From a virus, in IMG/VR virus record IMGVR_UViG_3300044491_003584, positions 1 to 27,178 of that record: a stretch of DNA of 27,178 nucleotides. One strand, 5' to 3'. Positions 2,567 to 27,178 of the stretch are shown one piece after another. Each line of letters starts with the position of its first letter. The first letter of the stretch is position 1. The translations under genes were made by a program, and so were the position numbers. The notes beneath the pieces were generated by a model. It was given only the letters and a program-made list of their open reading frames with translations. It made no database searches and was not told where the DNA came from.

Positions 2567-3073
2567 TTACTTTGGTCTGACAATCTTTGACTTGATGGGT
2601 GTTCGGCTCTTCATGGGCGCCTTGAAGCTCTTGCCTCGCTGTGATGCCCGCTTGATCTGGGCACCCTTCAATCTCAGTGAACCCGCGCCTGATCGCTTGG
2701 TCTGTGCCGTCCTCTTGGCTATGATGCCGGCCTTGGCCAACCTCTTCTTACGGATCTTGGCACCCTTGCTGGGGTTCAGTTTCATGAAACAGGTGCTGGG
2801 CTTGGCCACTATCCTGCCCTTCCTTGGTCCCGATGTACACCTGAAGCCCTTGGAAACCGTGCCCTTCTTGGCACGCCTCAGGATCTGGCTCACTCCCTCC
2901 GCGATGGCGGAATGGTCTGGGTGCTCCTCGATAGTGCCTTCGAACCGTTCTGACACGACATTATGTGGCACTATATCTTGTGTCTGACTGCCGGTAACGG
3001 TACTAGATGTTGTGGCACTAGATCGTGTGTCTAATGCTTTGGTTGGCGCTAGGATTACTTCAGTGATCTTCAT
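2567..3073 (-). CDS. Basic phage protein with Cys-x(n)-Cys core, 168 aa
   Basis: The start at 3073 (MKITEVILAPTKAL) is fixed by a late-promoter motif ending exactly 5 nt before the ATG. The first 60 residues are Ser/Thr-rich and flexible. Residues 75-110 hold a conserved-looking core, RCTSGPRKGRIVAKPSTC, that I recall from many phage hypotheticals, followed by a Lys/Arg-rich tail with repeated K-x-K steps. The strong positive charge suggests binding to DNA or to packaged nucleic acid. The N-terminus M-K-I-x-E-V matches that of the divergent neighbour. No enzymatic role is visible. Confidence 0.75.
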   Translation of the reverse strand: MKITEVILAPTKALDTRSSATTSSTVTGSQTQDIVPHNVVSERFEGTIEEHPDHSAIAEGVSQILRRAKKGTVSKGFRCTSGPRKGRIVAKPSTCFMKLNPSKGAKIRKKRLAKAGIIAKRTAQTKRSGAGSLRLKGAQIKRASQRGKSFKAPMKSRTPIKSKIVRPK

Positions 3074-3078
3074 ATGGG

Positions 3079-3086
3079 TATTTATG
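3079..3086 (-). promoter_or_regulatory. T4-type late promoter CATAAATA (leftward)
   Basis: CATAAATA is followed by 5 nt (CCCAT) and then the ATG at 3073. By the T4 late geometry the transcript would start at or next to the A of the ATG. No Shine-Dalgarno is present. Confidence 0.65.
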
Positions 3087-7417: not shown

Positions 7418-7528
7418 ATGAACCGAGACCTATTGGAGGCTCTAGCTCGCCAAACACATCGACTATCTCGCACAAAATTTCTACAGTGTGCTTACTCGAG
7501 ATACATAGAACTACATGAAACAACCTAA
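7418..7528 (+). CDS. Very small ORF, 36 aa
   Basis: One base after the stop of the previous gene an ATG opens MNRDLLEALARQTHRLSRTK, and the frame ends at TAA 7526-7528 inside the start of the next gene (14-nt overlap). GGAG-like sequence is absent. The peptide is basic, with a helical first half and one Cys. Tight fit between two real genes supports it, but it could be chance. If it is not translated, this stretch is simply the leader of the oxygenase gene. Confidence 0.4.
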   Translation: MNRDLLEALARQTHRLSRTKFLQCAYSRYIELHETT

Positions 7529-8177
7529 AGACTTTACTAAAAGAAAGAAGCAGAGCGAATGGCACTGGGACTATTGGGACGATCGTGACGACAATCGCAT
7601 GTTCAAGTTGGTGGGCAACATACAAGGCAAATGGCCCAAACTGCCTAAAAGGACCAAACAAAATAAAATGGAATCCACGAATCCCTCAGTGATCGCACAA
7701 CAAGGCCATTATGGAGTAACTGTCAAACAAACATTTGATGCCATGTGGATACAAGGTAAAAACATGAAGAAATATGAGAAATTTATTTCACCACTTGGCT
7801 TGAAGGATCCGGTTGCCTACATCCACAATCAAAATCCAGGACAGATGACCATTATACACATGGACACTGCCCGAGCCAACAATAAACACCTAGACGAAAA
7901 CGGCAAACCCTTAACCGAAAAACAAAGACGGGAGAGAATAGCAAGGCTATTCATCATGCTAGAGGACTGGAAACCAGGACAAATCATGTTAATGGGCAGT
8001 AGACATTGTGTGCGTTGGAAGAAAGGTGACATTATCTATTTCAGTTGGCAACACTTGCCACATGGGACAGCCAACTTTGGTCATGACCCCAGACCCATGT
8101 TGTTTGTTCAAGGCGAAGTTACTGAAGAATTTAAGAAAATTCTAAATAGTAAGAAGAAAGTGACAATCAAAGCATGA
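7515..8177 (+). CDS. 2OG-Fe(II) oxygenase-like protein (Asp/Asn beta-hydroxylase type), 220 aa
   Basis: The C-terminal half has a double-stranded beta-helix pattern with the iron triad H115-x-D117 (in HMDTA) and distal H183 (LPHGTANFG), and with R193 (PRPML) placed to bind 2-oxoglutarate. The segment between them carries L-E-D-W-K-P-G-Q and W-K-K-G-D, strongly conserved in the two paralogues at 12918 and 18722. Such enzymes hydroxylate protein side chains or small molecules using oxygen and 2-oxoglutarate. The substrate here is unknown. The first 60 residues are basic and may bind the target. Confidence 0.75.
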   Translation: MKQPKDFTKRKKQSEWHWDYWDDRDDNRMFKLVGNIQGKWPKLPKRTKQNKMESTNPSVIAQQGHYGVTVKQTFDAMWIQGKNMKKYEKFISPLGLKDPVAYIHNQNPGQMTIIHMDTARANNKHLDENGKPLTEKQRRERIARLFIMLEDWKPGQIMLMGSRHCVRWKKGDIIYFSWQHLPHGTANFGHDPRPMLFVQGEVTEEFKKILNSKKKVTIKA

Positions 8178-8355: not shown

Positions 8356-9345
8356 ATGTTTGAACATGTACCCAAGCACCTGAGACACCAATACAATCTC
8401 TATGACAGGAAAGGTAAATGGGGGGTAACCACCAACAAGTGTAATCTTCCACACAAAACAGTGGCCATTGACGGATTTGGTAACTGTATGATATGTGAAT
8501 GCGATGGATGGTTACCGATCAGTGTCTGCAACATCATAGAAGTGGATACATTGGAGCAGATATGGCAGTCCCCCAGAGCCAAAACAATCCAAGGGAGTGT
8601 AGATCAAGGCAAGTTCACATGGTGCTCGGTGAACAGATGTGGGATATTGAAAGGAGACAAAGTCAGGCAGACCTACTATGTTTCGATCAATATCGACGAC
8701 AGTTGTAATTTGGCCTGTCCTAGTTGTAGAAAATCTAAGGTATACAGGACCAGTGGCGAAGAATTCAATTCGAGATATAAGTTAGTCGCACGATTACTGG
8801 ATCTTATCAATAAATTTGATTCACCAATTGAAATAATGATGAGCGGTAATGGCGATCCTTTCGCTTCTCTGATATATAGACCTTTGCTGTTAGGAATGAA
8901 ACCAAAGGAAAACATCAACATAAGGTTTTTAACAAATGGTTTGTTGTTGAAGAAGTTAATGCCCAAGATGAGTGTCAAACAAAGCATACGTCACCTAGAC
9001 ATATCGATAGACGCCGGTGACCGCGAGACCTACGAAAGAGTCAGATTGGGAGGCAAATGGGAAACTCTAATTGAAAATCTGGATTACGTGAAACACAACA
9101 TGGATTGCGAGGTCACTTTGAAGTTCGTTCTACAGAGAGATAATCTAGCCAGTCTAGATAACTTTGTTTCTTTAGTGGAAAGATATCAGTTCCGCGGTAA
9201 CATAATACCAATAGAAGATTGGGGGACCTTGGATAATTTTTCATCACACAACATATTCGATACATCTCATCCTGATCATAAAGTTCTAAAAGAAAAACTT
9301 GAAAAGCACAGGAAAAATCCCCTGTTGCACTTCCACTCTATCTAA
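8356..9345 (+). CDS. Radical SAM enzyme with N-terminal Cys cluster, 329 aa
   Basis: Radical SAM enzymes use a [4Fe-4S] cluster to split S-adenosylmethionine and start radical chemistry. The cluster motif C117-x3-C121-x2-C124 (CNLACPSC) lies unusually far in, because about 110 residues precede it. These contain Cys at 29, 44, 47, 49, 58, 90 and 95, like a SPASM/twitch auxiliary-cluster domain moved to the N-terminus. The S-I-D-A-G strand motif follows. AATAAGTA plus 5 nt precedes the ATG, a near-match to the late promoter spacing. The gene overlaps the convergent membrane protein by 4 nt. The substrate is unknown. Confidence 0.85.
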   Translation: MFEHVPKHLRHQYNLYDRKGKWGVTTNKCNLPHKTVAIDGFGNCMICECDGWLPISVCNIIEVDTLEQIWQSPRAKTIQGSVDQGKFTWCSVNRCGILKGDKVRQTYYVSINIDDSCNLACPSCRKSKVYRTSGEEFNSRYKLVARLLDLINKFDSPIEIMMSGNGDPFASLIYRPLLLGMKPKENINIRFLTNGLLLKKLMPKMSVKQSIRHLDISIDAGDRETYERVRLGGKWETLIENLDYVKHNMDCEVTLKFVLQRDNLASLDNFVSLVERYQFRGNIIPIEDWGTLDNFSSHNIFDTSHPDHKVLKEKLEKHRKNPLLHFHSI

Positions 9346-9877: not shown

Positions 9878-11314
9878 ATGGAACTTGCTATACTCATGGC
9901 GGGTATCGCTTATGGCTTGATCATCGGCCTGATACCAGCCGCTGGGGCGACCACTGGACTGATCACACTGTTTGGATTCATGCCGTACTTCGTGGGAGAT
10001 CCCTACCTGGGCGTGATATTCTGTGTGGCGGTGGTGGCATCCTCGACAACCGGTGATTCATTCAGTGGTGTGCTGTTAGGCATACCGGGAGCCAACTCTG
10101 CGGCCGCCACTATGGTGGACGGATTTCCAATGGCCAAGAACGGAGAGGCCACACGGGCATTGAGTGCCGCGATCACATCCAGTACAGCGAACGGTCTGTT
10201 GTGGGGATCATTGACATTCTTATTTTTACCCTATTACACTAAAGTCGTGATGTACATGGGCATACCCGAACTGTGGGCATTGGTGCTGTTGGCGTTCGTC
10301 ACTGTTGGGTTCCTCTCGACAAAGAAATATGTGAGGAGTGTGTTGGCGATCGTCCTGGGTATAACGCTGGGCTTGGTGGGAGTTGATGCCAACAATGTAC
10401 CTCGCTTCACCTTGGGCTGGAGATATCTCGAGGACGGAATACAGATACTGCCGTTCGTGGCGGGACTATTCGCTATACCTGAACTGTGGGATGGATGGTT
10501 CAACAGGAAGAACACAACAAACATCAAGGCCGAGCGTGGCAGTTGGCAGGATCTCAAACTAGGTATCCAAGACACCGTGAGGTGTTGGCGTGACAGCATA
10601 CGCGGTGGGGCGATAGGTTCTTTCATAGGACTGCTACCGGGACTGGGCGGTGCCATGGCGGACTGGTTGGCCTACGGAGCAACCGTGGCCGCGAATCCCA
10701 AGGAGAGGTTTGGTGATGGCAACGTCAGGGGCATAGTGGGTGCCGAGGGAGCCAACAACGCACAGAAGGCGTCCAGTTTCATACCCACGGTGCTGTTCGG
10801 CATACCGGGTGCACCATTCGCCGCCATACTGATGGGACTATTTTTATACCTGGGCATCGACCTGGGATCACCAGACACCTTCTACGATGATAGATTGTTC
10901 GACAGCATGACATTCGCTTTCCTAGTCGGGACGGCATTGACCGCTGTGATATGTTATGGTCTGGCCTACTTCGCTGGATGGGTCACACGCATACCATACG
11001 TGTACTACTTCCCTTTCATATTGGCCGTGATCATCTGGGCCACCCTACAGTACACGGGCGGATGGGAGGACATCGCGACACTGACGGCATTCTCGGTTTT
11101 GGGAGTGCTGTGTAAGAAATTCCAAGTCAGCAGGCCAGCACTGCTGATCGGATTCCTGTTGAGTGACAGGATATACAATCTCACTTACCAACTAACAACG
11201 CTCCACACGGTGACGGATCTGATAACAAGACCGATCTTTATTTCCATAATGATCAGTGTTATACTGTTGCTGTATTGGGGCACAACAAAAAGGAACAGAA
11301 TAGACTATGCTTAA
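9878..11314 (+). CDS. tctA: TctA-family permease of a tripartite tricarboxylate transporter, 478 aa
   Basis: TctA is the large membrane subunit that moves carboxylates such as citrate across the inner membrane with a periplasmic binding protein (TctC) and a small subunit (TctB). Both halves of the family signature are intact: GLIPAAG (17-23) and GIPGANSAAATMVDGFPMAK (68-87) in the first, GLLPGLGG (251-258), EGANNA (290-295) and GIPGAP (308-313) in the second. Many hydrophobic helices are present. At 478 aa it is about 20 residues shorter at the N-terminus than typical bacterial forms. The next gene, TctC, overlaps it by 8 nt. No TctB gene is present. Confidence 0.93.
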   Translation: MELAILMAGIAYGLIIGLIPAAGATTGLITLFGFMPYFVGDPYLGVIFCVAVVASSTTGDSFSGVLLGIPGANSAAATMVDGFPMAKNGEATRALSAAITSSTANGLLWGSLTFLFLPYYTKVVMYMGIPELWALVLLAFVTVGFLSTKKYVRSVLAIVLGITLGLVGVDANNVPRFTLGWRYLEDGIQILPFVAGLFAIPELWDGWFNRKNTTNIKAERGSWQDLKLGIQDTVRCWRDSIRGGAIGSFIGLLPGLGGAMADWLAYGATVAANPKERFGDGNVRGIVGAEGANNAQKASSFIPTVLFGIPGAPFAAILMGLFLYLGIDLGSPDTFYDDRLFDSMTFAFLVGTALTAVICYGLAYFAGWVTRIPYVYYFPFILAVIIWATLQYTGGWEDIATLTAFSVLGVLCKKFQVSRPALLIGFLLSDRIYNLTYQLTTLHTVTDLITRPIFISIMISVILLLYWGTTKRNRIDYA

Positions 11315-12353
11315 GAAAACGATAATGGCACTGCTGTTGATGACATCAGTCGCCGTGGCCGACTACAACCTGATCGTGCCACAGAAACCATCGGGTGGAA
11401 CATCCGTGTGGGCACAGATAGTTGTGGCCGAATGGGAGAAACACCTGGGAGAAAAGATCAACCTCGTCTACAAACCAGGGGCCAGGGACATACTGGGTCC
11501 TGATGAATTCCAGAACACACTGAGGTTCGATGACAAGACAATATTAGTATCACACGGGGGCAATGGCATATCATACCTGATAGAGCCAGTGGACTACAAC
11601 TACCTGGAATGGGAGTCCATAGGACAGATGAACCTCAACATAATAGTGGGCGCGAGGAATGATGCGGACACAGTGAATGGACCGATCAAGTTCCCTTCAG
11701 GATCGGGCATGACCCCAGAGATCATGGCCATTACCATGCTGTTGGGTGGACCGGGCGCGGACTACAACAAGGTGTTCGCGGAGAAGATCGTGTGGGTCAA
11801 GGGCATGAGTGGTTCGGAACGTAGGCTCGCATTCATCAGAGGAGACCTCAACGCCACCAGGGAGAACCCTGCCGCTTACAAGAAACACGTGGAGCCCATC
11901 GTGGGCAAAGGTGAGGCAAGCACATGGTTCCATCATGGACTGCTGAACGTGAACACGGGAGAGCATGATGCTGATCCCAACTTCGTGGAGCCCACATTCG
12001 AGGCACTGTATGAATTGATGCATGGTGCGGCACCAAGTGGTGACTTCTATGACGCATACAAACTGGTCAAGAGTTGGAGGGACGCACTACAGAAGGCCTT
12101 CTGGGTGAACAAGGGCAATCCCAACAAAGATAAACTCGTGGACGCATTGAACAGGATGATAAACGATCCTGTGTCACGTGCCGCCATAGAGAAGAACGTG
12201 GGCCAGTACGAATGGAGGACTGGGGCAGAGGGTGACGCCGCTGTGAGGACGCTGAAGAGTTTCATCACACCAAAGGCGTTGAAGACCCTGGCCGACTTTG
12301 GGAGTGAGCAACTGGGCTACAACACAGTGTACAAAGAGGAATTGACCAAGTGA
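11307..12353 (+). CDS. tctC: TctC-family periplasmic solute-binding protein, 348 aa
   Basis: TctC (Bug family) proteins catch small carboxylates in the periplasm and deliver them to TctA. The N-terminus MLKKTIMALLLMTSVAVA is a clear signal peptide with an A-V-A cleavage site before Asp19. The mature start LIVPQKPSGGTSVWAQIV matches the family's P-x-G-G-x-x-D region with changes at the ligand-contacting position, and the V-Y-K-P-G-A segment corresponds to the usual N-x-P-G-A. It is about 20 residues longer than most relatives and quite diverged, so the ligand is unknown. It is coupled to TctA and to the next gene (GTGA). Confidence 0.85.
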   Translation: MLKKTIMALLLMTSVAVADYNLIVPQKPSGGTSVWAQIVVAEWEKHLGEKINLVYKPGARDILGPDEFQNTLRFDDKTILVSHGGNGISYLIEPVDYNYLEWESIGQMNLNIIVGARNDADTVNGPIKFPSGSGMTPEIMAITMLLGGPGADYNKVFAEKIVWVKGMSGSERRLAFIRGDLNATRENPAAYKKHVEPIVGKGEASTWFHHGLLNVNTGEHDADPNFVEPTFEALYELMHGAAPSGDFYDAYKLVKSWRDALQKAFWVNKGNPNKDKLVDALNRMINDPVSRAAIEKNVGQYEWRTGAEGDAAVRTLKSFITPKALKTLADFGSEQLGYNTVYKEELTK

Positions 12354-12943
12354 CGTACATACTGTTCACAGGGGCGCCGGGATCAAAGTGGAGCAGTGTG
12401 GTCAAGAACATCTACTGGAGTTCGGACATCGACCACACTGACTACTCCGAGGCCAGGACCTACTGGCACGACGCCGACACCCCCGGACGCAGACAGCTCA
12501 TGCACATTGGAGCGTACTGGGATCCGGGCATGGAGTTCCGTACCACGAGGGACAACTGGGACCTGCCCTTCTCGGGCACGGGAAAGAGGATAGTGAAGGC
12601 ACACACGTTCGCACACGAACTGGAGCAACTCAAGAACCTGGGCTATCCCATAGTGATGGTGTACAGGAATGATCACGAGTGCCTGGAATGGTGGAAACTG
12701 TGTGGCGAGTTCACGATAACATATCCCAACTATCAACACTTCGGTGACCTAGATCTAATGTGGGGACACATACAGGCAGAGAACCGGGACACCATGCAGT
12801 TCATACACGACAACAGGGACAGGATACACAAACCAAAAGACAACGTGGACCTTTGTAGACTGCTGGAGATAAGTTTCCCAGACACCAAGGGCAGGATACA
12901 TAACTACGCACAGAAGGATGTACAGGTATATGTCTACAAGTAA
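12350..12943 (+). CDS. P-loop sulfotransferase-like protein, 197 aa
   Basis: The start is a GTG overlapping the TGA of tctC (GTGA). The N-terminus has a strand followed by a P-loop-like G-A-P-G-S-K-W-S (8-15), the place where sulfotransferases bind the phosphosulfate of PAPS. Later segments KRIVKAHTFAHEL and VMVYRNDHECLEWW resemble the 3'-phosphate-binding strand and helix of sulfotransferases (R-x-x-x-E/S). I recall related proteins in T4-like marine phages, normally listed as hypothetical. The acceptor is unknown; a kinase-like P-loop function is an alternative. Confidence 0.6.
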   Translation: MTYILFTGAPGSKWSSVVKNIYWSSDIDHTDYSEARTYWHDADTPGRRQLMHIGAYWDPGMEFRTTRDNWDLPFSGTGKRIVKAHTFAHELEQLKNLGYPIVMVYRNDHECLEWWKLCGEFTITYPNYQHFGDLDLMWGHIQAENRDTMQFIHDNRDRIHKPKDNVDLCRLLEISFPDTKGRIHNYAQKDVQVYVYK

Positions 12944-13586
12944 TTGGGAAGAGTCAAAAGCGAGGAGCGATTATCACTTCAACAAGTGGCACCGGGACAC
13001 CGACTGCGTCCAACACCTGGGCAGGTTCACAGGCGGCTGGCAGACCGAGATACAGTCAGTGATCGATGACGCCAAGCCACTGAACTGGGCCAACCGTAGG
13101 GAGGGCACGGGCAGGGAGAATGTCAACGTCAACGTGGAGGCCGAGGAGAATGACCTCAGGAACGCTGGCGCTGATCCCAAGATGACCATATACAGGGGAC
13201 TGGCGGACTTCACCAAGTGTCCCACGCTACAGAGGATGACGGAGTTCTTCGCACTGGAACCCGTGAAGTCCAAACTGCACATACAGTTCACTGGTGAGGT
13301 GTTGAACATGCACATAGACAAACTGTACGACCTGGACGCTGATCCCAACAACGTGGTGAGGATAATGATCATGCTACAGGACTGGGAGCCTGGGCAGTTC
13401 ATCATGTATGGTAATGAACAGTTCGACAGATGGCGTACGGGAGACATACATAAATTTGACTGGCGGAACATACCACACGCGACGGCCAACGCCAGCAACA
13501 AGCCTAGGCCAATGTTGGTGGTGACGGGTGTGATGACGGACAGGACCAGGGAAATACTGACCAAACCGATCAAGAAAAGAATATAG
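12918..13586 (+). CDS. 2OG-Fe(II) oxygenase-like protein, second paralogue, 222 aa
   Basis: The iron-binding triad is H132-x-D134 (NMHIDKL) and H187 (IPHATAN), with R197 (PRPML) for 2-oxoglutarate, and the L-Q-D-W-E-P-G-Q segment matches the paralogues at 7515 and 18722. The first 110 residues differ from those copies, so the target may differ. The frame overlaps the previous gene by 26 nt; an ATG at 12930 (MSTSNWEESK) would cut this to 14 nt and is equally possible. It is the last gene of the run that begins with tctA. Confidence 0.75.
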   Translation: MYRYMSTSNWEESKARSDYHFNKWHRDTDCVQHLGRFTGGWQTEIQSVIDDAKPLNWANRREGTGRENVNVNVEAEENDLRNAGADPKMTIYRGLADFTKCPTLQRMTEFFALEPVKSKLHIQFTGEVLNMHIDKLYDLDADPNNVVRIMIMLQDWEPGQFIMYGNEQFDRWRTGDIHKFDWRNIPHATANASNKPRPMLVVTGVMTDRTREILTKPIKKRI

Positions 13587-15853: not shown

Positions 15854-17137
15854 ATGAAATCTAAACCATTTCCTATCACACAGGGTATTCCGTGCCAGTT
15901 GAAGTGGAACCACTCCACGGTCTTCCTCACCATGGGTACCACCGCCAGTTGCCACAGGGTCACACACGATCCCTACGAGTTCAAGGACAACAAGATGAAC
16001 TTCCACAACATCAAAACTAAACTGGAAGCAAGAATAAAAATGCTGAAGGGTGAATGGCCCGGAAGAGGGTGCGAACATTGTAAAAGCACAGAGGATGCCG
16101 GAGGACACTCTGACAGGATGTCACACCTGAACATGCAAGGGGTAACAGCACCAAAAGAACTCGAGAAAGATACCACAGCAGTCGACGTAACTCCTACACA
16201 GCTGGAGATCTACTTCAGCAACACTTGTAATCTCAAATGTGTGTACTGCAATTCCAAATTTAGTTCAACCATTGACAACGAGAACAGGATCCACGGACAA
16301 TTCGACTATGGCTTCGAGGATAACCGAGTTGGAGAACCTGTTAGGGTATACGGCAAGATAGAAATCAATCCCAACATAAAGGAAGACACTGACAAGTTGT
16401 TCGCATGGTTGGAAGGACATATACACGAATTAAACAAGGTGATGATCCTGGGAGGAGAACCGTTCCTACAGAAAGAAACAGAAAGAATGGTGGAACTGCT
16501 AGAAAGAATGTCCAATCCCAATCTTACATTGGTTGTATTTTCCAACCTTACAGTCGATACGTACAGGGTACAAAAATGGCTGGCAAGGATGTGGCGTTTG
16601 GTAGAGCAAGGCAAACTTAATAATCTGCAGGTAGTGGGCAGTCTTGACTGTTGGGGACCACAAGCAGAATATGTAAGAAATGGATTGGATCTTAAAAAGT
16701 ACACGGAAAATTTTGAATTTATATTGAACAAGACTAGAATAACACCTAGCATTAATAGTGCTTTGATGGCGTTGACAGTACCCACACTACCTGATCTAAT
16801 AGTTCAAATGAACAGGTGGTCAAAAATCAGAGAAGTGTATTGGAGTGGAATGAAGGCCGGGGATCACAAGCGTCCTTACCTCAATCCAACTATTTTTGGA
16901 AAAGACATTGTTCCTTTGGGTCTACAAAAGGCTGTTGACGTTTTTGAAACACACGGAGACGTGATCAAGGAGGCACAACTTAACAACCTCATAGGAATCA
17001 AGACCGAGTGTGAAAAATCTGCACCTAATTTATGGGACCAAAAAATGCTGAGAGGCTACATCGAGGAACTAGATCGTAGGAGAGGGTTAGACTACAAAAA
17101 ATTGTTTCCTGAGATTGCCACTTTACTCAAAGCCTAA
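15854..17137 (+). CDS. Radical SAM enzyme, twitch/SPASM type, 427 aa
   Basis: The cluster motif is C125-x3-C129-x2-C132 (CNLKCVYC), with G-G-E-P-F (200-204) for SAM binding. Before it are Cys 14, 33, 73 and 76, with R-G-C-E-H-C resembling half of an auxiliary-cluster domain; the same layout occurs in the copy at 23615. This architecture (N-terminal twitch-like part, then radical SAM barrel) is known from marine phages without a defined substrate. The start lies 5 nt after the previous stop. The end overlaps the convergent glycosyltransferase-like gene by 15 nt. Confidence 0.88.
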   Translation: MKSKPFPITQGIPCQLKWNHSTVFLTMGTTASCHRVTHDPYEFKDNKMNFHNIKTKLEARIKMLKGEWPGRGCEHCKSTEDAGGHSDRMSHLNMQGVTAPKELEKDTTAVDVTPTQLEIYFSNTCNLKCVYCNSKFSSTIDNENRIHGQFDYGFEDNRVGEPVRVYGKIEINPNIKEDTDKLFAWLEGHIHELNKVMILGGEPFLQKETERMVELLERMSNPNLTLVVFSNLTVDTYRVQKWLARMWRLVEQGKLNNLQVVGSLDCWGPQAEYVRNGLDLKKYTENFEFILNKTRITPSINSALMALTVPTLPDLIVQMNRWSKIREVYWSGMKAGDHKRPYLNPTIFGKDIVPLGLQKAVDVFETHGDVIKEAQLNNLIGIKTECEKSAPNLWDQKMLRGYIEELDRRRGLDYKKLFPEIATLLKA

Positions 17138-18151: not shown

Positions 18152-18159
18152 TATAAATA
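18152..18159 (+). promoter_or_regulatory. T4-type late promoter TATAAATA (perfect match)
   Basis: TATAAATA is identical to the T4 late consensus and ends 5 nt (TGGTT) before the ATG at 18165. This spacing favours 18165 over the in-frame ATG at 18159, which overlaps the motif. Confidence 0.75.
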
Positions 18160-18164
18160 TGGTT

Positions 18165-18725
18165 ATGCTTACACCATTTTTAAAGTATGTATCTGAGGGC
18201 CGGGTGATAAGGCGACATAGTGACTTAGAGAGATTTACCTTCCCGGAAGTCACGGAGAGGATATACCTCAGCCTGCTGGCACTTTCGGTGTTGAGCCAAC
18301 AGCAGAACACCCGATCATTTGCACACAACTACGGCGCACAGACCATGAGCTACGGCACGTTCGATCGTGTGAGGATGGTGTACAACGACCTGGCCAACAT
18401 GATGGCCATAGTGAGTGGGGATCCAGAGATAACCAAGAAGCTCAAGAACAAGAACCAGGCACAGGCCATGCGACAGAGGCAACCGGTGCCCGTGATGGCG
18501 GTGCGCAGGTACCTGAGGACCTGGGAGGACCACTACAGATTCCTCACACAACTGGAGAGGGCACTCAACATAACGGACGCCAACTACAGGAACATCAGGA
18601 GGAGGGTTACCGACTTCACGAACCTGGACGCCAAGACACGGACCAGCACGATAAAAAACCTACAACAACTGCTGAACAACAAGTTGCCCAACACGGACAT
18701 ACAGAGAAAGTTCAAGGAGTTATGA
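18165..18725 (+). CDS. Hypothetical phage protein, 186 aa
   Basis: The chosen start gives MLTPFLKYVSEGRVIRRHSD; an ATG six bases earlier would add two residues but lies in the promoter. The protein is mainly helical, with a Gln-rich segment (LSQQQNTRSFAHNYGAQ, about 43-59) and a basic stretch with R-Q-R-Q-P-V-P-V-M-A-V-R-R. No known domain. It starts the coupled run to 20194: its TGA overlaps the ATG of the next gene. A virion or assembly role is possible because of the late promoter, but this is inference. Confidence 0.7.
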   Translation: MLTPFLKYVSEGRVIRRHSDLERFTFPEVTERIYLSLLALSVLSQQQNTRSFAHNYGAQTMSYGTFDRVRMVYNDLANMMAIVSGDPEITKKLKNKNQAQAMRQRQPVPVMAVRRYLRTWEDHYRFLTQLERALNITDANYRNIRRRVTDFTNLDAKTRTSTIKNLQQLLNNKLPNTDIQRKFKEL

Positions 18726-19360
18726 TAGACTTTTTCAAAAACAGAACTGTCGCTCCCACGTGGGATGAAAAAGTGGGAGACTACTTCGCCAATGATTCCA
18801 GCGAATTCTATAGGGTCATAGCAAACATACAAGGTGAGTGGGACATCAACCCAGAGATCACAGATTTCTACGAATCTAAAAATCCTGGTGTGTTGAAACA
18901 AAACGCGAAATACAATCAAAATTTAAAGACAAGATTTGACCCAATGAAGTTAGATGGTAAAGAATCCGAGTACCATTCTCTGATCAAGGCCACAGGACTG
19001 GATATAGTTGAATCATTTATACACGTGCAGAAACCAGGACAGATGACAGTGATGCACTACGATGGCGCAAGGTGTGAGGGCAAGTTAGATTACATGACTG
19101 AAAAACAAAAAAGGAACACGGTTATCAAACTTTTCATTTTTCTCGATGATTGGAAACCAGGACACGTGACGTTAATGGGCAGTGATCATTTCGTAAAATG
19201 GAAGAAAGGTGATGTGTTTTGGTTCGACTGGCCTAACCTACCACACGGTACGGCAAACTTTGGTTTAGTTCCTAGGCCACTTTTGTTTATCGTAGGTACG
19301 AGGACTGCGAGATTCGACAGCATTTTTAACAGCAAGGAAAAAGTAAGGTTACAGGTATGA
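18722..19360 (+). CDS. 2OG-Fe(II) oxygenase-like protein, third paralogue, 212 aa
   Basis: The triad is H112-x-D114 (VMHYDGAR) and H175 (LPHGTANFG), with R185 (VPRPLL). The run LDDWKPGHVTLMGSDHFVKW (141-160) and the K-K-G-D that follows closely match the copy at 7515, including the final 'SKEKVRLQV'-like tail, so these two are the nearest pair. The ATG overlaps the previous stop (ATGA) and its own stop overlaps the next ATG. Its position just before two cysteine-rich peptides and a methyltransferase suggests a shared modification or metal-handling job, which is inference. Confidence 0.75.
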   Translation: MIDFFKNRTVAPTWDEKVGDYFANDSSEFYRVIANIQGEWDINPEITDFYESKNPGVLKQNAKYNQNLKTRFDPMKLDGKESEYHSLIKATGLDIVESFIHVQKPGQMTVMHYDGARCEGKLDYMTEKQKRNTVIKLFIFLDDWKPGHVTLMGSDHFVKWKKGDVFWFDWPNLPHGTANFGLVPRPLLFIVGTRTARFDSIFNSKEKVRLQV

Positions 19361-19473
19361 AGAAGGAGAAGTGCCACAGGTGCAACTGCAATCCACACTG
19401 CGATGAGGCGAGGTGCCCCAACTGTGAGAACTGCGAGGTGTGTGACTGTCACGAGTGCTTGGAGAGGTCATGA
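19357..19473 (+). CDS. Cysteine-rich microprotein A, 38 aa with 10 Cys
   Basis: ATG at 19357 overlaps the oxygenase TGA. The peptide MKKEKCHRCNCNPHCDEARC continues with PNCENCEVCDCHECLERS. Cys are at 6, 9, 11, 15, 20, 23, 26, 29, 31 and 34, mostly as C-x-C and C-x2-C, with three His. Ten Cys in 38 residues fits a metal-binding (zinc, copper or iron-sulfur-related) or metallothionein-like peptide. The next gene encodes a near copy with the same spacing. The coding direction, the exact overlaps and the repeat of the pattern argue strongly that it is real. Confidence 0.8.
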   Translation: MKKEKCHRCNCNPHCDEARCPNCENCEVCDCHECLERS

Positions 19474-19583
19474 TCAAATACATTTGTGAACAATGCGGAT
19501 GCGAACAGCACTGTGGTAGATCCTGCACCGAATGTAGGGACTGCCCGGACTGTGACTGCAAGGAATGTAAGGACTCCAGGTGA
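19470..19583 (+). CDS. Cysteine-rich microprotein B, 37 aa with 10 Cys
   Basis: The ATG shares ATGA with the stop of microprotein A. It reads MIKYICEQCGCEQHCGRSCT, then ECRDCPDCDCKECKDSR, with Cys at 6, 9, 11, 15, 19, 22, 25, 28, 30 and 33: the same spacing as its neighbour except for one residue less between the fourth and fifth Cys. This is a tandem duplication with little identity outside Cys. It overlaps the FkbM methyltransferase start as GTGA. The two may fold as a pair or bind one metal cluster. Confidence 0.8.
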   Translation: MIKYICEQCGCEQHCGRSCTECRDCPDCDCKECKDSR

Positions 19584-20194
19584 CCTATCCCACGGGCAGG
19601 GACTTCTGGGTGGCCTACAATGGCCAACACACAGAACCCACTTTCATAGAGAACGCCGGCGATGGACAGTCTGAGCTGAGGCGCGAGGCCTACAAACACA
19701 TAAAGGTATGGCGTGGTTGCGTGGATGCCGGTGCCAACGTGGGCATGTGGACCAGGTACCTGATGAAGGACTTCGAGCAGGTGCACTGCTTCGAACCCAA
19801 TCCCATATTCATAGAGTGCTGGAGGAAGAACACACCCCCGGACCAGAATGCGGTGCTACACGAGGTGGGACTGGGTGATTCCGAACACACAGCCACGTTC
19901 ACACAACCCATGGCACAGATGTTGGATCGCACACCCGGAGACATACAGATCCGGACGTTGGACAGTTTCGAGTTGGTGGACATAGACTTCATCAAGATAG
20001 ACGTGGACGGTTACGAGGACCTTTTGGTCAAGGGCGCACAGGAGACCATAGCACAGAACCTACCGGTGATCAACATTGAGATGAAGAGGGCCAAAAGACC
20101 AGGTATAGTGCGTGTGGCCGAGGATACGTTGAAAAAGTTGGGTTATAAACTCAAGATACGCACCAAAAGTGACGAAGTGTGGTTTAAACCTTAA
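19580..20194 (+). CDS. FkbM-family SAM-dependent methyltransferase, 204 aa
   Basis: The start is a GTG that overlaps the previous TGA (GTGA). Motif I is VDAGANVG (48-55), F-E-P-N-P follows at 71-75, and the family hallmark DFIKIDVDGYE (136-146) is complete, followed by L-V-K-G-A. FkbM enzymes usually methylate hydroxyl groups of sugars or polyketides. In phages they often lie among glycan-modifying genes, and here it ends the coupled run of an oxygenase and two cysteine-rich peptides. The target is unknown. Confidence 0.88.
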   Translation: MTYPTGRDFWVAYNGQHTEPTFIENAGDGQSELRREAYKHIKVWRGCVDAGANVGMWTRYLMKDFEQVHCFEPNPIFIECWRKNTPPDQNAVLHEVGLGDSEHTATFTQPMAQMLDRTPGDIQIRTLDSFELVDIDFIKIDVDGYEDLLVKGAQETIAQNLPVINIEMKRAKRPGIVRVAEDTLKKLGYKLKIRTKSDEVWFKP

Positions 20195-20222: not shown

Positions 20223-20230
20223 CATAAATA
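20223..20230 (+). promoter_or_regulatory. T4-type late promoter CATAAATA with a 62-nt leader
   Basis: CATAAATA lies 62 nt before the ATG at 20293. Unlike the close-spaced late motifs elsewhere, this one gives a normal leader that ends in a strong Shine-Dalgarno (AAAGGAGGA). Confidence 0.7.
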
Positions 20231-20292: not shown

Positions 20293-20700
20293 ATGGCAAT
20301 TAGTAAAAATAACTTCTCACTAAACCAAAACTACGAAGTTGGTTCAGTAGATGTAAAGTTCTTCACAGTAGACTTTATCAACACTATGGCGTCTGAGACA
20401 GGTGATGTATCATCTGGTTCAACAACTGCTGGTATCGATCTTGTGAGAAACACAATCAACCAATACGTGACTATCTTAGCAGAAGGTCCATTAACTGACA
20501 CTGGAACACAGAAAACTTTCATGGTTAGAGCGGACCAATTAGACGACTTGTCAGCCACTACAACTTTAGCGGCTTTACAAACGGCTATACAAGCGTTAGA
20601 TCAGTCTTCAGCGGCTTACCCTAACATCCAGGCTGACATCACAAGTGCTACAGTGACAGAAACCAAACTTGGTATCTTGACTGCGGCGGCTGTAAGTTAA
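20293..20700 (+). CDS. Probable abundant virion protein, 135 aa
   Basis: The ATG at 20293 (MAISKNNFSLNQNYEVGSVD) follows GGAGG by eight bases; the earlier in-frame ATG at 20239 has no such site. The protein is rich in Thr, Ser and Ala, contains only one Lys-rich spot at its N-terminus and no Cys, and looks like a beta/alpha structural subunit. Codons are unlike most of the window (AGA, TTA, GCT, GGT), as in the gene at 6296, which suggests high expression. Own late promoter and a strong terminator isolate it. I recall similar N-termini in T4-like cyanophages, listed as structural. Confidence 0.8.
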   Translation: MAISKNNFSLNQNYEVGSVDVKFFTVDFINTMASETGDVSSGSTTAGIDLVRNTINQYVTILAEGPLTDTGTQKTFMVRADQLDDLSATTTLAALQTAIQALDQSSAAYPNIQADITSATVTETKLGILTAAAVS

Positions 20701-23614: not shown

Positions 23615-24910
23615 ATGAGCAAATCATTCTGTTCTTTGGTATGGAATCATCAGTACGTACACACCAATGGTGCCTTCAAGTATTGCTGTGCCACCAACGA
23701 CAAGATACTAGACAAAAAAGGCCATCCCTATCACATCAACAACTCATCTTTTGACAGTGTGTGGAACAGTGACCATATGAAAAATACAAGACTGCAGATG
23801 ATCAAGGGAGAAACCGTGCCTGCGTGTGTCAAGTGCGATGAACAAGAAGCACAGGGCTATCAATCCATGAGAAGTATCGATAACAAAGAAAACTATATAA
23901 AAGAGACCAACCCGGACGGGTCAGTGAATCATTCTCCTCACAGTGCAGAAATACATTTTGGTAACTTGTGTAACCTCAAGTGTAAGATGTGTTCACAAAA
24001 TTATTCGAACCAGATAGGAAAAGAGTTGATCGAGATGGGCGAAGAGGATCCAGAATGGTTGAACTGGGTCATGAAACAGAGCGGAAACGTCAACAACTGG
24101 ACCAATAATCTTTCGGTAGAATACAAGTGGTTCAAAAATCCAAAAATATCTCAAAAACTTGTAGAATGGGTCAGTAAAAATATAACCGAAATTACTATTT
24201 TAGGAGGCGAACCGACCATCATTCCTGAATTCTGGAACATTTTTGATCACTGCGAAAAGCAAGGAACTCTTGAGGACAAGAAAGTCACTGTAGTAACTAA
24301 CCTCACAAATGTAAACCCTAAGGTCAAACAATGGTTGCCCAAATTGAAAAATTGGACCATATGGGGTAGTATAGATGGCATAGGGGAACGCACGGAATAC
24401 ATAAGGTACCCTAGCAACTGGAACAAGGTCGTCGAAAACTTAAACTTCTACAAGAGTGTTATTGATCAAAAACCAAACGGCCAAATTGTGTTCAGTCCCG
24501 CCATATCAATACTCAACATCGATCAGTTGGATGACTTGCTGGCGTGGCAGTTAGAGTTTGCCGGGGGAAAATGGAACAACAACTATAACCTTTCATGGAT
24601 GGCGCAGGTATGGTATCCAAAGATGTTGAACTACGATGTGGCACCTCATGATTACCGATTAAAAATCGCGGACAAACTGGAAAAAAATAAATCAAAGTTT
24701 GACAACACATCAGAACAATTCAAGAATTACTATGATGGTCATATAAGAAATTTACGAGAAGATAAAATTCAAGCGGCCGAAAGAACACACCTGCTAAAAA
24801 GTTTCATAAGATATAATGATCAGCAGGACCGATTCCGAGGGAAGACCACATGGAGAAAACTTATCCCCGAACTAGAACAAAGTATTACAAAATACTTGTC
24901 GCAATCTTAG
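23615..24910 (+). CDS. Radical SAM enzyme, twitch/SPASM type, 431 aa
   Basis: The cluster motif is C119-x3-C123-x2-C126 (CNLKCKMC), with G-G-E-P (197-200). N-terminal Cys 6, 24, 25, 71 and 74 resemble an auxiliary-cluster domain, with F-x-S-V-W-N-S-D as in SPASM-containing proteins. It is a paralogue of the 15854 gene. The 24-nt leader has no Shine-Dalgarno. Its end overlaps the convergent SGNH gene by 26 nt. The substrate is unknown; peptide or glycan modification is the usual guess for this architecture. Confidence 0.88.
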   Translation: MSKSFCSLVWNHQYVHTNGAFKYCCATNDKILDKKGHPYHINNSSFDSVWNSDHMKNTRLQMIKGETVPACVKCDEQEAQGYQSMRSIDNKENYIKETNPDGSVNHSPHSAEIHFGNLCNLKCKMCSQNYSNQIGKELIEMGEEDPEWLNWVMKQSGNVNNWTNNLSVEYKWFKNPKISQKLVEWVSKNITEITILGGEPTIIPEFWNIFDHCEKQGTLEDKKVTVVTNLTNVNPKVKQWLPKLKNWTIWGSIDGIGERTEYIRYPSNWNKVVENLNFYKSVIDQKPNGQIVFSPAISILNIDQLDDLLAWQLEFAGGKWNNNYNLSWMAQVWYPKMLNYDVAPHDYRLKIADKLEKNKSKFDNTSEQFKNYYDGHIRNLREDKIQAAERTHLLKSFIRYNDQQDRFRGKTTWRKLIPELEQSITKYLSQS

Positions 24911-26439: not shown

Positions 26440-27178
26440 ATGCCGATAGTACAGATCTCAAGAATACAGCACAGACGTGGAAAAAGAACGGATCTACCGC
26501 AGTTAGCCGCGGGTGAGTTAGGATGGGTCATAGACGAACAGCGATTGTTCATAGGAAATGGCACAGTGGCGGATGGTGCCCCAGCGGTGGGCAACACGGA
26601 GATAGTCACGGCGGGCAGTTCAGCATTCACTACAGCACTGACACACACCTACAAGGGATACCTAGGAGATGCTACACCTATCGTTACTGGCACTTCTGGT
26701 GATGTGACCAGGACCTTACAAGCGGTATTAGATGATCACGCATCGGTCAAGGCGTTTGACGCCAAAGGTGATGACAGCACCAATGACACGGCGGCCATAC
26801 AGAGGGCCATAGATGAATTATACTCAGACACGGACGAGAATGACACGAGGTCCAGGAGGGTTCTCTTCTTCCCGGCCGGTGTCTACAGGATCAACGGTAG
26901 CATCACGATCCCACCCTACGCACACTTGGTGGGAGAAGGACCAGACAAGACAATCATAAGACAAGCGGGCGGAAACGCACCAGTGGCAGTCACAGAAGAT
27001 GATGATGGTAACACATATGATGTAGGGATAATTGGTACAGCAGGCGCCACTGTCCCAACACAGATACAGATAGAAGGTATTACATTTAGGAACGCGGAAG
27101 CCTATGGTGGAGTGTCCATAGACAACGCTACCATGGTCTATTTCAACAACTGTAAATTTCAAGGCACGTACGCCTCTG
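26440..27178 (+). CDS. Tailspike or fibre protein, partial: Mtd-type N-terminus plus pectate-lyase-like repeats
   Basis: The frame is open from ATG 26440 to the window edge (246 residues seen). The start MPIVQISRIQHRRGKRTDLP continues with QLAAGELGWVIDEQRLFIGNG, the N-terminal domain of phage Mtd-type receptor-binding proteins. About residues 90-240 look like a pectate-lyase-type right-handed beta-helix: V-K-A-F-D-A-K-G-D-D-S-T-N-D-T-A-A-I-Q, F-F-P-A-G-V-Y-R-I, L-V-G-E-G-P-D-K-T-I-I-R. It probably binds and may cut a host surface glycan. The C-terminal receptor-binding end lies outside the window. Confidence 0.88.
   Translation, partial: MPIVQISRIQHRRGKRTDLPQLAAGELGWVIDEQRLFIGNGTVADGAPAVGNTEIVTAGSSAFTTALTHTYKGYLGDATPIVTGTSGDVTRTLQAVLDDHASVKAFDAKGDDSTNDTAAIQRAIDELYSDTDENDTRSRRVLFFPAGVYRINGSITIPPYAHLVGEGPDKTIIRQAGGNAPVAVTEDDDGNTYDVGIIGTAGATVPTQIQIEGITFRNAEAYGGVSIDNATMVYFNNCKFQGTYAS

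Follow-up and report, generated by a model that had tools for sequence, protein, structure and literature searches.

Two very small overlapping genes, each carrying ten cysteine codons, lie in a run of coupled genes in a viral genome fragment (an IMG/VR virus record; the whole stretch of 27,178 bases that was analysed is called the window). They raise the question of whether such frames are genes at all and, if so, what their products would do for the phage. An earlier note on this DNA had taken them for a duplicated metal-binding peptide, read as one unit with an oxygenase before and a methyltransferase after, and perhaps metallothionein-like or an iron-delivery partner for the oxygenase. The features of the region are as follows.

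18152-18159, + strand: T4-type late promoter box TATAAATA, 13 nt before the ATG (18165) of the 186-aa gene
18165-18725, + strand: 186-aa gene that opens the unit, product predicted helical, uncharacterised (aligned homologues, AF2)
18722-19360, + strand: 2OG-Fe(II) oxygenase-like protein (PhyH match at E 0.029, weak and short of the curated cut-off)
19357-19473, + strand: CysA microprotein, 38 aa, ten Cys and the invariant His14, MKKEKCHRCNCNPHCDEARCPNCENCEVCDCHECLERS
19470-19583, + strand: CysB microprotein, 37 aa, ten Cys and the invariant His14, MIKYICEQCGCEQHCGRSCTECRDCPDCDCKECKDSR
19580-20194, + strand: FkbM-type methyltransferase, last gene of the unit (PF05050, E 1.7e-10; phrog_8156, E 2.3e-26)
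20223-20230, + strand: late-promoter-like box CATAAATA, starting the next unit (gene 20293-20700)

Both the two frames of 38 and 37 codons, with ten Cys each, and their coupled reading as one unit are present in the sequence as first described. CysA has the spacing C-x2-C-x-C-x3-C-x4-C-x2-C-x2-C-x2-C-x-C-x2-C, and CysB has the same spacing except for x3 between the fourth and fifth Cys. CysA starts on the stop of the 18722-19360 gene in a 4-base overlap (ATGA at 19357), a second such overlap joins CysA to CysB (ATGA at 19470), and GTGA at 19580 couples CysB to the FkbM-type methyltransferase. By a rough estimate, the chance of ten Cys codons being so placed anywhere in the window is ~1e-10. 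In a search of the window's own record, CysB as query recovered CysA at E 0.0013, and neither of these two proteins has a match in Pfam or PHROGs.

We scanned viral contigs for the Cys pattern, at first without and then with a His directly before the fourth Cys; poly-Cys repeat junk was removed by requiring this His and barring extra Cys. The x4 spacing matched 19 stretches, and matches to the x3 spacing are listed in part. With a profile search, family members were found in at least 137 loci, which were drawn from the matches listed and make the family total a lower bound: 135 other viral contigs, the window, and L211, an 8-kb MAG contig that is the sole non-viral locus among them. More than 130 marine virus fragments carry the family. 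A scan of 84,980 cellular genomes, which covered the x3 spacing alone, returned five matches; only L211 passed the family profile, and the four that failed it were discarded. Searches by tblastn with the short peptides against phages gave chance matches only, and the low-complexity filter may mask such Cys-rich queries, so that these searches say little about absence. In 12 whole phage records (cultured, complete or single-cell) the profile found nothing significant: there was one match (E 0.07, with an internal stop) in MH319766, a single-cell marine virus contig, and none in the other 11. A match in Melnitz was dismissed, as it sits within a larger annotated gene.

The alignment of 125 distinct homologues from the 137 loci follows the pattern Cx2CxCx2HCx3-4Cx2Cx2Cx2CxCx2C, in which ten Cys and one His are invariant throughout, with the reservation that the alignment was seeded by a pattern that enforces the ligand positions for most members. 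The His is an 11th invariant position that the earlier note did not include. It was already invariant in the first alignment of 18 sequences, and its invariance there is independent of the search, since the first pattern scans did not require it. While these 11 ligand columns stay fixed, the non-ligand columns vary. Departures from the strict pattern occur in 5 of 128 distinct profile members. At one locus (L070) a second copy lacks the first Cys, and at another (L075) two Cys units lie within one open frame. Selection on the Cys genes is strongly purifying, with pS 0.76 and pN 0.08 (pN/pS ~0.11) for type B and dN/dS values of 0.08 and 0.10 for type A (types defined below). A search for the Cys pattern in related phage genomes and a comparison of synonymous with non-synonymous sites had both been proposed as checks, and the retention of all ten Cys and the low ratios speak for real genes. 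Judged by the 125 homologues with invariant ligands together with the pN/pS of ~0.11, both frames are real genes.

Members can be assigned to type A (signature CHRCNC..HC), type B (MIKYICEKCGCEQHC..CPDC) and type C (MIEC.CE.CSCEHHC), and there are further types besides these. Two strict copies are present at 31 loci, in the order A then B at 27 and A then C at three, where the sorting rule also counted under B those members with an N-terminal arm (DDYxAY). Members with this conserved arm (LPxxxDDYxAYxA) before the Cys domain occupy other gene neighbourhoods. Within one locus, A and B share 7% identity at non-ligand positions, whereas identity is 40% between members of A and 56% between members of B, and on these values we rejected a recent tandem duplication. 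By these sequence identities A and B are two old classes, derived either from an old split or from separate recruitment. The description as a duplicated peptide therefore holds in the weak sense of paired relatives, but not in that of two recent copies.

We counted neighbouring genes within 1.5 kb of the Cys genes at the 137 loci; these counts are lower bounds because of contig ends, and include related contigs more than once. The main lineage has a DUF6267 gene and an antisense gene, followed by the 186-aa gene and by A, B or both; the FkbM methyltransferase usually comes next, and then small multicopy genes. Homologues of the small gene at 20293-20700 are found in 1-3 copies downstream of the Cys unit in other loci. 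The most constant neighbour is the 186-aa gene, with a homologue near the Cys genes at 97 of the 137 loci. An AF2 model of its product is helical (pLDDT 85, pTM 0.84) and resembles an uncharacterised protein of Agrobacterium phage Atu_ph07 (Foldseek, E 8.7e-7), with no fold match in the PDB. The flanking of the Cys genes by an oxygenase and a methyltransferase in one unit holds for the window; across the loci, a methyltransferase homologue is nearby at 89 of 137 and an oxygenase-like gene at 2 of 137.

By its DUF6267 gene, the nearest relative of the window phage is Pelagibacter phage HTVC008M (~42% identity), followed by cyanophages. Elsewhere in the window, a TctA-family gene (PF01970, E 1.3e-93) is followed by a probable TctC-like gene (by inspection, no Pfam match) at 9878-12353; together these would amount to a phage-borne tripartite tricarboxylate transporter, which is unusual as a set of auxiliary metabolic genes. 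There are three radical SAM genes (8356-9345, 15854-17137 and 23615-24910), one with a SPASM domain match, and radical SAM genes recur in related contigs. Three genes appear oxygenase-like by inspection, with no Pfam match above the cut-off (7515-8177, 12918-13586 and 18722-19360). The tail gene at 26440-27178, which is cut by the contig end, matches Mtd_N (major tropism determinant N-terminal) and also carries a pectate-lyase-like domain.

When would the Cys genes be expressed? The box at 18152-18159 is the sole exact TATAAATA in the window, and NATAAATA is the late promoter of cyanomyoviruses and marine T4-like phages (PMC2984593). At 91 of the 91 sites found, NATAAATA precedes the conserved ATG of the homologous 186-aa gene by exactly 13 nt. 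Since this gene is the first of the unit, the unit at 18152-20194 is probably a late operon and its Cys genes are probably expressed late. A late-type box (one mismatch to TATAAATA allowed) is also found 13 nt before the ATG in eight of ten type-C Cys genes, and other genes of these contigs favour the same box-to-ATG spacing. By T4 promoter geometry, a 13-nt spacing would have transcription begin at the start codon or close to it, and the late message would probably be leaderless or near-leaderless. The spacing raises the possibility of leaderless late mRNAs across this phage group. In the window, a late box set before an ATG in this way is seen at 18152-18167, and also at 3071-3085 on the - strand.

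The arrangement of the ligands offers a clue to function. Eleven ligands fall within 28-29 residues and the longest ligand-free stretch is four residues; because ligands are never further apart than this, one multinuclear metal-thiolate cluster per peptide is most likely, rather than separate zinc fingers. Ligand conservation and purifying selection are in keeping with the metal-binding, metallothionein-like design that had been suggested. In our preferred reading, to which we give even chances, the genes encode late phage microproteins that fold around such a cluster and buffer a soft metal, likely zinc, as metallothioneins do. CysA and CysB would each fold on a cluster with 11 ligands, ten Cys and one His, which by analogy with bacterial metallothioneins probably holds 3-4 Zn2+. 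Made late in infection, as virions are being built, the peptides would sequester soft metal ions inside the infected cell and buffer them; zinc is the likeliest of these ions. A bolder proposal, which we put forward only tentatively, is that of an undescribed phage metallothionein family: uncultured marine T4-like phages would use paired, non-interchangeable thiolate-cluster peptides from late (possibly leaderless) operons to capture the zinc of the host and buffer it late in infection. Among the possible roles we rank late metal buffering first, followed by a metal-stabilised adaptor or virion component, a methyltransferase partner and an iron partner.

The cluster may instead only stabilise the fold of a peptide that binds a protein of the virion or of its assembly, as a virion part or a chaperone among the late genes, a role that we consider possible but rather doubtful. 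It would be consistent with the late box before the unit, with the strict spacing and conserved class-specific residues, and with the conserved N-terminal arm of another lineage. In the f79 lineage (8-9 contigs), moreover, the Cys gene starts where the gene for a virion structural protein (phrog_5838, up to 1929 aa) stops. However, no single structural gene constantly adjoins the family, whose members in other lineages lie among proteins without known function, and the lack of a common non-ligand surface on A and B is unlike what one conserved docking protein would call for.

It is unlikely that the Cys peptide is a regulatory or substrate-carrying accessory domain of the FkbM-type methyltransferase, despite the frequency of this neighbour noted above. 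A type-A Cys domain is indeed fused to the N-terminus of the enzyme in L042 (2260-2367, - strand) and L244, which suggests, in that one population, a protein-specific role over free buffering. These two contigs are 98.8% identical, though, and the fusion is thus probably one event. Furthermore, no methyltransferase is nearby at 48 of the 137 loci (an upper bound on absence, given contig ends), and it is missing across whole lineages, namely type C, the type with the DDY arm and the f79 lineage.

A role as an iron or iron-sulfur partner, either of the adjacent oxygenase or of the phage radical SAM enzymes, is improbable in the extreme. The oxygenase adjoins the Cys genes in the window and these phages often carry radical SAM genes, but the oxygenase-like gene is found beside Cys genes in only the window and one other locus (L302). 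It is an insertion specific to the window phage and this one relative, and its adjacency is incidental; on this co-occurrence, we rejected the suggested iron delivery to the oxygenase. No constant metalloenzyme neighbour of the Cys genes was found among the 137 loci. As a rule, 2OG oxygenases are not known to need a dedicated chaperone for Fe(II) loading. A [4Fe-4S] ferredoxin was likewise rejected, as its motif C-x2-C-x2-C-x3-C is absent from the invariant pattern. Finally, that these Cys-rich frames arose by chance and are not genes has next to no probability, short as they are, being refuted by the conservation and selection described above.

If these metallothionein-like peptides bind zinc, they would open a way to study how phages handle trace metals where the ocean is poor in metals, and if they are true phage metallothioneins, they would represent an unrecognised phage control over the metal economy of ocean bacteria. 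We found no description of a phage-encoded metallothionein by title or abstract in the open-access literature, where the terms metallothionein and phage are seldom joined. Whatever its role, this is a strongly conserved, very small family in many marine virus contigs that is absent from the curated libraries searched, and its tiny fold and two diverged subtypes make it a suitable model for the study of metal-cluster folding.

How does the family compare with known systems? It is absent from the curated Pfam and NCBIfam libraries: the 125 members gave no match in NCBIfam, none to the metallothionein models of either library at E<=0.1, and a single marginal match in Pfam, to the RPAB4 zinc ribbon (1 of 125 members, E 0.06). 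In PHROGs, the one match was to phrog_16378, a phage family without assigned function (4 of 125, best E 0.011), and is marginal and not significant. An AF2 model of the Cys peptide, with metals omitted, is mostly coil with one short helix (pLDDT 84.6, pTM 0.52), and this metal-free model has no Foldseek match to a PDB fold. The CCHC zinc knuckle of retroviral nucleocapsid and AIR2 comes close in one respect, as the first half of type B is exactly C-x2-C-x4-H-x4-C. Yet this stretch encloses two extra invariant Cys (positions 11 and 15), type A differs by an x5, nothing in the knuckle corresponds to the Cys-rich second half, and profile matches reached E values of 1-8 only; we thus rejected this assignment.

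The fold of bacterial metallothioneins is of the GATA zinc-finger type (PMC10612145). There is no sign of this fold in the metal-free model, and we therefore propose that the peptides may work like a metallothionein, with no support for membership in any known metallothionein family. They differ from the bacterial proteins in being shorter (37-38 aa), in their ligand order, in having no Pfam match and in their phage late-operon context. Nonetheless, the likeness to bacterial metallothioneins of the SmtA/BmtA/PmtA type is extensive: both are small, very rich in Cys and poor in aromatic residues; both contain CxC and CxxC pairs, count His as a ligand, show no visible signal peptide, and have ligands dense enough to imply a multinuclear cluster. 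Across the family, Cys makes up 28% of residues (25-35% is expected of metallothioneins) and F+Y+W ~2%, and the 11 ligand columns are held invariant while the other residues drift, as the divergence of A from B illustrates.
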